The notes under the pieces: model-generated | The model's input: the letters and a program-made list of their open reading frames with translations, nothing else | Databases searched by the model: none | What the model was told of the DNA's origin: nothing | Translations under genes and position numbers: made by a program | Source: Acidobacteriaceae bacterium | GTDB taxonomy: Bacteria > Acidobacteriota > Terriglobia > Acidiferrales > UBA7541 | Direction of reading: 5' to 3' | DNA length: 33,489 nucleotides | Assembly (NCBI GenBank): GCA_030838075.1 | Contig: JAUTXJ010000081.1 | Location: 1 to 33,489, forward strand | Shown here: positions 3,488 to 32,067 of the stretch, in pieces | Numbering within the stretch: the stretch's first letter is position 1 | Layout: each line of letters starts with the position of its first letter

Positions 3488-4726
3488 TTAGCTTGCCAGA
3501 CTCCGCAGCGTCTCCGCGAGAACCAGCGTTCCGCGAACAATGTCTTCAGGAGAAGCATATTCGTCGGGGCGGTGACTGTAACCGTTGTGACAGGGTATGA
3601 ACAACATCGCTGTGGGGGCGATACGGGACATGAATAACGAATCGTGATACGCCCGGCTGACCATGTTTGTGAAAGGCAGCCCATGTTTTCTGCACGATTC
3701 GGAAAGCGTTTCGACAATATCTGGCGCGCAATCCGCTGGCGCGTCCGCATTCACCAATTCCTGTCGAATGGTCACACCGCGTTTCGCTGCAATCGCGTGA
3801 CAGGACGCATCAACGGTGGCGATGAGCGAGTCACGCCGCTGCAAATCGGTATCGCGAATGTCCACGCTGAGGTGCACGCGGCTGGGAATGCTATTGACCG
3901 CGCCGGGAAACACTTCGCAAATACCTACTGTCGCCACTGTGTCCGTGGATCCGCTGGTTTTGGCCTGTTGTTCAATCGCGAGAATTAATTCTGAGGCCGC
4001 GCAAAGCGCATCACGGCGGTCGGGCATCAGCACTCCACCGGCGTGCCCGCCCGCACCTTCAATAAAAAGTTGAAAGCTGGATGGCGCGGCAATTTGGTTC
4101 ACAATCCCGAGCGGAATTTGTTTCTGTTCCAGCAGCGGGCCTTGTTCGATGTGCAATTCAAGAAACGCTTGGTAATGTCCGGCAGGTAATTTCACGGTTT
4201 CGAGTTTGCCCTGGAATCCTGCGGAGCGCCGAACTTGCTCAATGGTTGCGCCTTCTTTATCCTTTAATTTTTTCGCGGCATCGGCCGACAGACTCCCCGA
4301 AAGCAAACGGCTACCAAGGCAACCGATGCCAAAGCGCGTTGGTTCTTCCGAAGTAAAAAGAATCAGCTCAATCGAACGTTTTGGATTGAAGCCGCTTTGC
4401 TGTAGGGCGCGGATAGCCTCGAGGCCTCCGAGTACACCGACCACGCCGTCATACTTTCCGGCATTTGGAATTGCGTCGATGTGCGAGCCGGTGGCCACTG
4501 CGGGAGCATCGGAATTTTGTCCGTTCCATCGCGCAAAAATATTTCCGATGGCGTCCTGACGAACTGCAAGGCCCGCTTCTTTACAGCGCTCCAAAAACCA
4601 TGCTCGCGCTCTTAAATCTGTCGGGGTGAAAACAATTCTGGTTACCGCAGGCGCTTCCGCATCGGAAATCAAGGAGAGTTCCTCGATCTCCGAGATCAGT
4701 CGCTGCTTATCAACCTCGAGATTCAT
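3488..4726 (-). CDS. M20-family ureidoglycolate amidohydrolase (plant UAH-like)
   Basis: SHIDAIPNAGKYDGVVGV, FTSEEPTRFGIGCLGSRLLSG and ELHIEQGPLLEQ motifs; overlaps the ureidoglycine aminohydrolase gene by 17 nt. Confidence 0.75.
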   Translation of the reverse strand: MNLEVDKQRLISEIEELSLISDAEAPAVTRIVFTPTDLRARAWFLERCKEAGLAVRQDAIGNIFARWNGQNSDAPAVATGSHIDAIPNAGKYDGVVGVLGGLEAIRALQQSGFNPKRSIELILFTSEEPTRFGIGCLGSRLLSGSLSADAAKKLKDKEGATIEQVRRSAGFQGKLETVKLPAGHYQAFLELHIEQGPLLEQKQIPLGIVNQIAAPSSFQLFIEGAGGHAGGVLMPDRRDALCAASELILAIEQQAKTSGSTDTVATVGICEVFPGAVNSIPSRVHLSVDIRDTDLQRRDSLIATVDASCHAIAAKRGVTIRQELVNADAPADCAPDIVETLSESCRKHGLPFTNMVSRAYHDSLFMSRIAPTAMLFIPCHNGYSHRPDEYASPEDIVRGTLVLAETLRSLAS

Positions 4727-28328: not shown

Positions 28329-28676
28329 ATGAGCCAAATTACCTCAAGTTCGCAACGGCGCAGTAGTCGAATGTTTCATAAAATGCGGATGCAGGCCCAA
28401 GGCCGCGCGCACAATGGGAAAAAATTTCGCGAGACCTGCGAAACCCTGGTGGTTAACGGCCACGGCGGGCTTCTGATTCTCAAACACGAAATCGATGACG
28501 GAGCAATGCTGGTGCTTACACATCCGGAGACATTGGAAGAACAAGAGTGCCGGGTAGTTTTTGTAGGGGAAATTAACGACCGCGGTCAGCGCGTGGGCGT
28601 CGAATTTCTTACTCCCGCGCCGCACTTCTGGGGCTTGGAATTTGTTGAACCATCGGTAGGTGGCTCAGCGGTTTAG
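28329..28676 (+). CDS. PilZ-like domain protein
   Basis: Small protein: ETLVVNGHGGLLILKHEIDDGAMLVLTHPETLEEQECRVVFVGEINDRGQRVGVEFLTPAPHFWGLEF. ATG 28329 preferred. Confidence 0.6.
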   Translation: MSQITSSSQRRSSRMFHKMRMQAQGRAHNGKKFRETCETLVVNGHGGLLILKHEIDDGAMLVLTHPETLEEQECRVVFVGEINDRGQRVGVEFLTPAPHFWGLEFVEPSVGGSAV

Positions 28677-29306
28677 GACCGGCCTGACAGCAACTGCGTC
28701 GACTCTCAGCTGTCTTCTCTTTGAAAGTGAAGCGAATAGTCTCCACAACAATAAAGCCGCCACAATCGCACCGTAGGTGAGCGGCCTGATTACCGCGGAC
28801 TTAACCAGCCAGTAGTAGTGAATCACTCCTAGCGCCGCGCTGAAATAAATCAGTCGATGAAGCTGCTGCCAGCGTTTTCCGCCGAGACGTCTAATCCACC
28901 CGGCAGTAGATGTTACCGCCAGCGGAATCAGCAACAGAAATGCGGTAAATCCCACAGTGATGTATTTGCGCTTGGCGATGTCCTTCCACATTTCCGATAG
29001 ATCGAAGAATTTATCTAGCCAGATGTACGTAGTGAAATGCAGACACGCGTAAAAGAAAGCAAACAGACCCAGCATGCGGCGAAAGCGAATCAGTTCCGGA
29101 AGGTGCAGGATTTTCCGAAATGGCGTAACGCACAGCGTAACGACCAGGAAGCGAAGCGTCCAATCTCCGGTAGCATGGGTGATGAACTCGATTGGATTAG
29201 CGGTCAGCTCGCCGTGAAGTGCTTCCCAGCCCAACACCATTAACGGCAAAAGACATAACAGAAAGACTGCCGGCTTACTCCATTTGCTGTTTAGCAGTGC
29301 ATGCAT
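28665..29306 (-). CDS. msrQ: MsrQ, haem b membrane subunit of the periplasmic Met-sulfoxide reductase
   Basis: Multi-TM: ATGDWTLRFLVVTLCVTPFRKI, RRMLGLFAFFYACLHFTTYIWLD and WQQLHRLIYFSAALGVIHYYWLVKS; adjacent to MsrP. Confidence 0.9.
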   Translation of the reverse strand: MHALLNSKWSKPAVFLLCLLPLMVLGWEALHGELTANPIEFITHATGDWTLRFLVVTLCVTPFRKILHLPELIRFRRMLGLFAFFYACLHFTTYIWLDKFFDLSEMWKDIAKRKYITVGFTAFLLLIPLAVTSTAGWIRRLGGKRWQQLHRLIYFSAALGVIHYYWLVKSAVIRPLTYGAIVAALLLWRLFASLSKRRQLRVDAVAVRPVLNR

Positions 29307-29312
29307 CCGGGT

Positions 29313-30275
29313 TTAGTAGCTTTTCTTGAGGTCCATTCCATTGTAGAGACTCGCGACTTGATCGCCGTAGCCATTGAACATCAGCGTGGGCCGCTTAAAA
29401 ATTTCGCCGAGACGGCGTTCTTTCGCCTGGCTCCAACGCGGATGATCGACATTAGGATTCACGTTGGAGTAAAAACCGTACTCCCGGGGAGCCATGCGAT
29501 TCCAGGTAGTGGGTGGTTGTTTTGCGACAAAGCGGATTTTCACGATGGATTTGATGCTTTTGTAGCCATACTTCCAGGGAACAACCATTCGCACCGGGGC
29601 GCCGTCCTGATTGGGCAATGTTTCCCCATACATTCCAACCCCGATTAACGTAAGCGGATTCATGGCCTCATCGAGGCGCAAACCTTCCACGTATGGATAT
29701 TCAAGGCCGGAATATTTTGCCTGCGGCATCTGACCGGGATCGAAAAAGCTTTCAAAGGCCACGAACTGTGCTATGGGGGTTGGTTCAACCAGCTTGGCGA
29801 GTTCAATAAAAGGAAAACCTATCCAGGGCACCACGATGGACCACGCTTCCACGCAACGATGACGGTAGATGCGCTCTTCCAAAGGAGCAATCTTTAGAAT
29901 TTCATCCATGCTGAATTTACGCGGCTTTTTAACTTCACCTTCGACGGAAACGCTCCACGGCGAGGTGCGGAATTTCTGCGCATTTTTGGCGGGGGCAGTT
30001 TTGTCAGTGCCAAATTCGTAGAAATTATTGTAGTGGGTCACATCGTTGTACGGTGTTTCCTTTTCCGTGGTGCTGAAAGGACTCTTCGTGGCCACGTCCA
30101 ACTTGCTGGTGGCGTGGACTTCATCAAATGGCATTCCTATCCGCCAGGCAGATGCTCCCGCAAATGCTGCAACTCCCGCGAGTCCCATGGCGCGCAGAAA
30201 TTCACGGCGCTGGGTATAGACAGATTTGGGCGAAACGTCTGAATAGGTCAAATCGGTGGGCCTGCGAATAAGCAT
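29313..30275 (-). CDS. msrP: MsrP, periplasmic molybdopterin methionine-sulfoxide reductase catalytic subunit
   Basis: Twin-arginine leader RREFLRAMGLAGVAAFAG; YRHRCVEAWSIVVPWIGFPF and GAPVRMVVPWKYGYKSIKSIVKI. Confidence 0.93.
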   Translation of the reverse strand: MLIRRPTDLTYSDVSPKSVYTQRREFLRAMGLAGVAAFAGASAWRIGMPFDEVHATSKLDVATKSPFSTTEKETPYNDVTHYNNFYEFGTDKTAPAKNAQKFRTSPWSVSVEGEVKKPRKFSMDEILKIAPLEERIYRHRCVEAWSIVVPWIGFPFIELAKLVEPTPIAQFVAFESFFDPGQMPQAKYSGLEYPYVEGLRLDEAMNPLTLIGVGMYGETLPNQDGAPVRMVVPWKYGYKSIKSIVKIRFVAKQPPTTWNRMAPREYGFYSNVNPNVDHPRWSQAKERRLGEIFKRPTLMFNGYGDQVASLYNGMDLKKSY

Positions 30276-30576
30276 GTCTTTTCCTCAGCGATGGTTACCA
30301 ATCCCTGCATTTATATTACGGGAATTCCGGAGTATTGGACGCGCCAAGCTCGTAAAGGGTGCAGGCCGCAAATTTAATGACAATTTGGTGACATTTCATT
30401 TTTCGAGCCCGCGCGGACGCAACTAGGGCGGGAGGCGCAACAATCACCGTCTGAAGCGCCGACTAAAATAGCCTGACAGGTCAACATTTTGGTAAATGTA
30501 CGCAATAGATTCTTTGCGTTGTACTTGTGGCTGAAACGCTGGCACTTTAAAAGTGCAGTAAGCATCGTGCATCACG

Positions 30577-30727
30577 TGTGGCGAGAACCACGAAGTTCCT
30601 GCCTTACTTGCAACAACCCGGGCAACCTGCTTTGCCCCAGGACCTGAGGGTCCTGCCATAAAAAATAAGTAAGAACGGCGCACCTGGTGAGGTGTGCCCA
30701 AATCTAAAATTAAAATTGGAGGACTCA
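30577..30727 (+). promoter_or_regulatory. Candidate structured 5' leader of the 30728-31210 gene
   Basis: Hairpins GTGG-cgagaa-CCAC, GGGCAA-cctgct-TTGCCC, CAGGACC-tgag-GGTCCTG and GGCGCACCT-ggtg-AGGTGTGCC, plus CTTACTT/AAGTAAG closing the middle two. Confidence 0.5.
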
Positions 30728-31210
30728 ATGGACACAAAACAGAAACGATCACTATCGGTGCATCTTGCAGGCTTGGCTCTAGCAGCGGGCGCGTTCCTCG
30801 GAACCGCGTCAGCGGCACGTTCCCAGGACCTGGTGCGCGGCACAATTACCCTCACGATCGCAGCCCAGTTCGGCAATACCACTTTGGCGCCCGGTAAATA
30901 CAGCTATGTAGTCGAGTCGCTGGAAGATATTCACTCCGTGGATGGCCTTCAGATTGGAAACAACCGCGTAGCTGTCATTCTAAGCAGTCTGACCAAGGAT
31001 GGTCACGTTGTAAGCTTGATCGCCAATGCGTTTAGAGAGGGCGCGCTAAACTCGCAATCGCCCGACTCCGTCGACTTTGGAACCGGAATGACGATTCGCT
31101 CGATCTCCTTAAAAAGTGCGGGCGTGAAAGTTATCTTCAGCACCAATCGAAACGAGCACGTATTGCAAGCAACGGCCTCGCAGCCATCGGCGGTTCGAGG
31201 AAACGATTAG
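30728..31210 (+). CDS. Small exported protein of unknown function
   Basis: ATG 30728 with TTGGAGGA upstream; signal peptide MDTKQKRSLSVHLAGLALAAGAFLGTASAARSQ; ORF runs to 31210. Confidence 0.75.
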   Translation: MDTKQKRSLSVHLAGLALAAGAFLGTASAARSQDLVRGTITLTIAAQFGNTTLAPGKYSYVVESLEDIHSVDGLQIGNNRVAVILSSLTKDGHVVSLIANAFREGALNSQSPDSVDFGTGMTIRSISLKSAGVKVIFSTNRNEHVLQATASQPSAVRGND

Positions 31211-31341: not shown

Positions 31342-32067
31342 ATGTGCTCGGGTAGCAACGTACTCATCGATGAGTCCACCGAAGTGGATTTACTGCACGT
31401 CATCGCCAGCCGGATAACGGCAGCGGATTCGCTGCATGATGTTCTGGGACGAGTGCTCGAATTCGTCTTGTGGATCGCCAAGTTTGATTCCTGTTTCATC
31501 TACATTTTGGAAGGAAACGAACTCGTTTTACGGGCGTCACGTAATTCGCATAGCGAAGCCTTAGACCGTATTAGACTGCCGCTTGGTCAAGGCATTACTG
31601 GTTGGGTAGCGCAGCATCAGCAGCCAGTTTCGGTCGAGCACAACGCCTTCGACGATCCCCGTTTCCAAGCTTTTCATCAATTGCCGGAGGACCGCTTCGA
31701 AGCGTTTTTGTCCGTGCCGATTTTGAGCCGAGGCAAAGTGGTCGGCGTAATCAATGTGCAGCAGCGCGAGCCGTACGTTTTCAGCCAACGCGAAATTCGT
31801 TTGATCGTTACGGCCGGTTTCCTGGTAGGCGCTGAAATTGAATTGGCGCGCTTGGAAAGCGCCAATTCGCAGCTCTGCGAACAGTTGAATGCCAGAAAGG
31901 CCGTCGAGCGGGCTAAGGGAATCTTGCAGCGCGATTTGCAATTGAGCGAAGAGAAAGCCTATCTGACTCTGCAAAGCCAAAGCCGCCAAAGAAGAAGGCC
32001 TATGCGCGAAGTCGCCGAAGCCATCGTGCTGAGCGACGAGATTAAGCGCGCTAACGAAAAGATTTAA
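31342..32067 (+). CDS. GAF domain - ANTAR domain protein (putative RNA-binding antiterminator)
   Basis: GAF: RLPLGQGITGWVAQHQQPVSVEHNAFDDPRF...FLSVPILSRGKVVGVINVQQREP; C-term ANTAR: ARKAVERAKGILQRDLQLSEEKAYLTLQSQSRQRRRPMREVAEAIV. Confidence 0.85.
   Translation: MCSGSNVLIDESTEVDLLHVIASRITAADSLHDVLGRVLEFVLWIAKFDSCFIYILEGNELVLRASRNSHSEALDRIRLPLGQGITGWVAQHQQPVSVEHNAFDDPRFQAFHQLPEDRFEAFLSVPILSRGKVVGVINVQQREPYVFSQREIRLIVTAGFLVGAEIELARLESANSQLCEQLNARKAVERAKGILQRDLQLSEEKAYLTLQSQSRQRRRPMREVAEAIVLSDEIKRANEKI

Follow-up and report, generated by a model that had tools for sequence, protein, structure and literature searches.

A conserved hexaloop leader RNA linked to a GAF-ANTAR gene in Acidobacteriota, a probable variant of the ANTAR-target RNAs

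In the 33,489-nucleotide (nt) contig JAUTXJ010000081.1 of an Acidobacteriaceae bacterium (the window, meaning the whole stretch of DNA analyzed), a multi-hairpin leader stands directly before the gene for a small exported protein. This leader is probably a variant ANTAR-target RNA, bound by the GAF-ANTAR protein encoded downstream and controlling the exported-protein gene. The analysis shows the conservation of the hairpins, the invariance in one family of leaders (f11) of the fourth loop base (G4) and the C-G pair closing the loop, the linkage with the GAF-ANTAR gene, and the retention in the protein of the residues that contact G4 in EutV. The leader resembles an ANTAR-target RNA, yet lacks two strict features of these RNAs, namely an A at loop position 1 (A1) and an overlapping terminator, and it is accordingly a variant and not a member. 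The window is from an Acidobacteriota genome, with Terriglobia, Ca. Sulfotelmatobacter and Acidobacteriaceae metagenome-assembled genomes as the closest named records.

The hairpins recognized by ANTAR proteins come in pairs, and their hexanucleotide loops have A1 and G4 (PMC3369931). For the leader, we infer the binding, the signal, the direction of the effect and the level of control. Under this scenario, the leader would be transcribed from a promoter-like element upstream, and its hairpins would present an unpaired G4 in six-base loops. The GAF-ANTAR protein would receive a signal via its GAF domain, dimerize and grip the loops by the flipped-out G4, altering expression of the exported-protein gene. 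In the window, hairpin stabilization would free the Shine-Dalgarno sequence, as hairpin H4 competes with a helix covering it.

Conserved hexaloop hairpins and the fold of the leader

Homologous leaders were collected via their genes because a DNA similarity search found no copy of the leader in 60 other genomes. Homologues of the exported-protein gene were gathered across the class Terriglobia, and those linked to a GAF-ANTAR gene gave 51 leaders, a few of them loci entered twice from different collections. As a set, these leaders have hairpins with six-base loops in common. Family f11 gave 31 matches of at least 42 bits to a covariance model built from 16 leaders, with one locus holding two. 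Applied to GAF-ANTAR loci without the exported-protein gene, the model gave nothing convincing (best match 16 bits). At locus L178 the leader is duplicated in tandem on the minus strand (4316-4417 and 4494-4593), and both copies match the model.

The 31 leaders of family f11 each carry three hexaloop hairpins (P1, P2 and P3), some with 7-base loops. All 31 have the same closing C, loop G4 and closing G in every one of these hairpins, and a C or U occupies loop position 1 (29 of 31 in P1, all 31 in P2 and in P3); in the window it is C. Half of the base pairs (11 of 22) have compensatory changes on both sides. The covariation score, 0.209 against 0.111 when shuffled, is reached by none of 500 shuffles and exceeds all slid versions, in an alignment that was fitted to the covariance model and leans towards it. 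RNAalifold and pair counts within one genus gave little covariation, the sequences there being too alike, and the wider set showed it. The percentage paired is biased in a 14-nt stem set (A5) that was chosen for pairing, and set A6 was relied on instead. Among leaders of the window's genus, the second hairpin (GAAC-YNNGNN-GTTC) stands out clearly and the first is weaker; in relatives the distance of this second hairpin from the promoter matches that of P2 in the window.

Linkage to a GAF-ANTAR gene goes with the motif. In Boltzmann samples, linked leaders hold 0.76 G4-hexaloops each, versus 0.07 in unlinked paralogues and 0.078 when the linked leaders are dinucleotide-shuffled (n = 36, Wilcoxon p 1e-7, an optimistic value since the sequences are related). 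It is very unlikely that these are chance hairpins of a GC-rich leader, conserved only through a conserved DNA element; the adjacent promoter element is strongly conserved, as such an origin would have it, but the compensatory changes and the tenfold excess of G4-hexaloops over shuffles argue against it.

The leader region of the window folds to -54.8 kcal/mol, compared with a dinucleotide-shuffle mean of -41.8 (z -3.2; 1 of 200 shuffles equally good). Pairing probabilities were computed from the ensemble of 30556-30745 (Table 1). Two clear G4-hexaloops, P2 and H3, lie 21 nt apart in the window. The full form of P2 is GGCG-A-GAAC-CACGAA-GTTC-C-TGCC, with a pairing probability of 0.76 for the inner stem, C at loop position 1 and G 30592 as G4. 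The loop of H3 likewise has C at position 1, with G 30629 as G4 and an A-U closing pair, and its counterpart in the nearest relative, L008, is GGGCAA-CCCGCT-TTGCCC. H4 is the counterpart of the relatives' GAC-YYYGTN-GTY hexaloop.

Table 1. Features of the leader and the genes that follow it in the window
Feature	Positions	Strand	Description
Promoter-like element	30510-30548	+	TTCTTTGCG; -35-like TTGTAC (30519-30524), 18-nt spacer, -10-like CACTTT (30543-30548)
Hairpin P2	30580-30603	+	Outer GGCG..TGCC, inner GAAC (30585-30588)-CACGAA-GTTC (30595-30598)
Junction helix, 5' strand	30603-30609 (partner 30667-30673)	+	Probability 0.29-0.41; not conserved
Hairpin H3	30620-30637	+	GGGCAA-CCTGCT-TTGCCC; probability 0.75-0.997
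Hairpin H4	30638-30655	+	CAGGACC-TGAG-GGTCCTG; probability 0.62-0.64
Possible anti-Shine-Dalgarno arm	30648-30658 (H4 segment)	+	Pairs with 30717-30726; probability ~0.33; excludes H4
Hairpin H5	30677-30698	+	GGCGCACCT-GGTG-AGGTGTGCC; probability 0.98-1.0; ends 20 nt before the Shine-Dalgarno sequence
Shine-Dalgarno sequence of exported-protein gene	30718-30722	+	GGAGG
Exported protein, 160 amino acids	30728-31210	+	Gene directly after the leader
GAF-ANTAR regulator	31342-32067	+	Next gene after the exported protein; likely binder, judged from sequence

An earlier note on this DNA had proposed a structured cis-regulatory leader with four hairpins and a three-way junction. The leader itself is borne out by covariation in homologues, by the promoter-like element, which precedes the hairpins by ~35 nt, and by the leader's specificity for one gene context. 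All quoted hairpin sequences are present at their positions, and the ensemble probabilities agree for H3, H4 and H5; the first hairpin, GTGG-CGAGAA-CCAC, has a probability of 0.03 and is displaced by GAAC-CACGAA-GTTC (30585-30598), the form conserved in relatives. The segments CTTACTT and AAGTAAG do make a perfect 7-mer helix, of a length that arises in 1.5% of shuffled flanks, but the three-way junction that it was to close is unsupported, given its absence from the L008 fold. Covariation in homologues, the check suggested for the proposal, is present in the hexaloop hairpins and absent from the junction helix. That the leader belongs to no known riboswitch class agrees with the Rfam scan, in which only a tRNA elsewhere passed the gathering threshold and the leader gave chance-level matches at E<10. 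A small-molecule riboswitch organized by the three-way junction of the earlier note is hardly credible; the window by itself is able to form the junction helix (probability ~0.4), but there is no conserved junction core among the leaders and no Rfam match, and conservation sits in the hairpin loops.

The GAF-ANTAR protein and the RNA-contact residues of EutV

The key context of the leader, absent from the earlier note, is the GAF-ANTAR gene downstream. Its product matches the Pfam families GAF_2 (2.5e-19) and ANTAR (1.4e-16) and is the single ANTAR match in the window's own genome. Such a gene is found within the fetched flanks at 45 of the 51 leader loci, and five of the six remaining genomes encode a GAF-ANTAR protein elsewhere. 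Its arrangement relative to the exported-protein gene is tandem within the genus of the window and convergent within family f11. Leaders of paralogues not beside a GAF-ANTAR gene carry neither the promoter 16-mer described below nor the hexaloop motif.

In the structure of EutV with its RNA, G4 is the sole base-specific contact: it stacks on Tyr164, and Arg142, Lys149 and Glu160 hold it in place. Met172 is an essential plug in the RNA loop (PMC8934654). Aligned with EutV (6wsh), the GAF-ANTAR protein of the window keeps the equivalents of Arg142, Lys143, Lys149, Glu160 and Tyr164 and has the changes Met172 to Arg, Arg168 to Gln and Asn173 to Gln. The position of Met172 holds Met in EutV, Rv1626 and NasR and Arg in every GAF-ANTAR domain of the clade that was read. 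As judged from the alignments, then, there is a correlation: on the RNA side G4 is retained and A1 lost, and on the protein side the pocket for G4 is retained and the plug altered. Arg at this position would suit a loop with G4 but without A1, and in this respect it would speak for the leader being an ANTAR target.

It is also conceivable, if unlikely, that the hairpins are bound by another RNA-binding protein or merely stabilize the 5' end of the mRNA, and that the GAF-ANTAR protein acts on something else. GAF-ANTAR homologues without the exported-protein gene have no such hairpins nearby, and many of them adjoin nitrate or nitrite assimilation genes, so the family has other targets. However, the hairpins are confined to leaders linked to or coexisting with a GAF-ANTAR gene, and ANTAR domains recognize loops of this C-[NNNGNN]-G shape (PMC3369931, PMC8934654).

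GAF-ANTAR homologues at L022, L026, L036, L060-L073, L134 and L188-L211 stand next to a HemD-like domain or are fused to one. These adjoin nirB, nirC, SUMT or NarK-like genes and are apparently regulators of nitrate/nitrite assimilation. In two related Acidobacteriaceae (L170 and L184), a pair of G4-hexaloops lies on the minus strand, ~90-150 nt ahead of a gene for a TonB-dependent receptor; this gene and the GAF-ANTAR gene are divergent. The two hairpins, CTTC-CACGTC-GAAG and TCTTC-CAGGCA (or CAAGCA)-GAAGA, are 15-16 nt apart, and these leaders may be a second target. An idea tying the loss of the hexaloop at L095 to a broken regulator was abandoned, as the stop in L023 proved to be a natural end.

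Promoter-like element, level of control and weighing of the evidence

From the promoter-like element, transcription probably starts at ~30555, and a start downstream of 30660, which the earlier note had considered, is unlikely given the conserved element. Its consensus is the 16-mer ATTYTTTNNRTTGGAC, with CATAGT-like bases coming after a gap of 17-18 bases. Nearly all of the 51 leaders have the 16-mer, ~200-240 bases ahead of the start codon; it occurs once in the window's own genome and had no other match among the non-exported loci collected up to then. A sigma-70 consensus scan does not list the element. Found only before these leaders, it may depend on an activator or a sigma factor of its own.

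An intrinsic terminator is predicted neither in the leader of the window nor in 41 of the 51 leaders, and classical antitermination is for this reason not the default. In that mechanism, shown for EutV and NasR, the hairpins would compete with a leader terminator and binding of the GAF-ANTAR protein would let RNA polymerase through. A terminator-like hairpin with a T-rich tract in 10 of the 51 leaders is consistent with it; given the 41 leaders with none, the window among them, and a T-tract whose place is not conserved, we regard antitermination as rather unlikely here. Control at translation (or via mRNA stability or Rho) is more likely than terminator/antiterminator switching, to judge from the predicted features of the leaders. 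In the window, the helix of the anti-Shine-Dalgarno arm reaches -14.0 kcal/mol versus -8.9 when shuffled (p 0.015), and L008 also has such a segment, a different one (p 0.005). An anti-Shine-Dalgarno switch is retained as a possibility.

Several observations weigh against an ANTAR-target role. Loop position 1 is a pyrimidine and not the A that EutV and NasR require, and two related leaders, L005 and L095, are without a clean G4-hexaloop, although the L095 genome has a GAF-ANTAR gene on another contig. The window lacks a clear P1, and in H4, a tetraloop there, the six-base reading CTGAGG is without G4, which has been lost. The anti-Shine-Dalgarno pairing is not general, reaching p<0.05 in 6 of the 51 leaders. 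The change of Met172 to Arg could also mean weak or different RNA binding. Apart from the TonB-receptor leader in the two related species, G4-hexaloops are not in excess beside other GAF-ANTAR genes of the class, and the ANTAR link accordingly draws mostly on one gene pair.

More tentatively, the Acidobacteriota may hold a separate ANTAR branch, in which domains with Arg for Met would read a C-[YNNGNN]-G code in a three-hairpin array fixed from a dedicated promoter, and the exported protein would be controlled via translation, not termination.

Gene context and comparison with known ANTAR systems

The exported protein matched no Pfam or NCBIfam family. Its predicted structure is beta-rich, in a low-confidence model (pLDDT 62) that has no match in the PDB with E<=0.001. 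Divergent from the leader, on the minus strand at 28665-30275, lie genes for MsrP and MsrQ (periplasmic methionine sulfoxide repair), and molybdopterin oxidoreductase genes are likewise upstream at L009, L010 and L014.

If the leader is an ANTAR target, RNA control by ANTAR proteins, known from Firmicutes, Proteobacteria and Actinobacteria, would reach a dominant soil phylum, and the A1 rule would not be universal. With the loop change paired with the change of Met172 to Arg, recognition would be testable by a swap of one residue and one base. It would also provide a first handle on an acidobacterial family of exported proteins without assigned function. Full-text searches of open-licence papers that paired ANTAR with Acidobacteria gave no description of such RNAs.

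Like the dual-hexaloop RNAs targeted by EutV (eut, Enterococcus), NasR (nasF, Klebsiella) and AmiR (amiE, Pseudomonas), the leaders have successive hexaloop hairpins with an invariant G4 and a C-G closing pair, and the gene for the cognate ANTAR protein is present and linked, with binding here predicted from sequence. Unlike those systems, they are found in the phylum Acidobacteriota with an exported protein as the target, C or U takes the place of A at loop position 1, family f11 has three hexaloops, and most leaders have no overlapping intrinsic terminator, which is not required in actinobacterial members. The P1-P2 linker of ~7-8 nt in relatives of families f1 and f11 falls within the 5-12 nt seen in eut leaders (PMC3369931), whereas the P2-H3 spacing in the window is outside that range and inside the actinobacterial range of 2-25 nt. 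Class GAF-ANTAR relatives adjoin nirB, nirC and HemD genes, as in nitrate control of the NasR/NasT type, while the GAF-ANTAR gene of the window is linked to the exported-protein gene and not to nitrate genes. The ANTAR RNAs of actinobacteria and mycobacteria are divergent, with a relaxed loop position 1, few terminators and a proposed translational control (PMC8164766). The window-type hairpins differ from these in ending well upstream, at a fixed distance from the promoter, but resemble them in the relaxed loop position 1, the scarcity of terminators and a possible control at translation.
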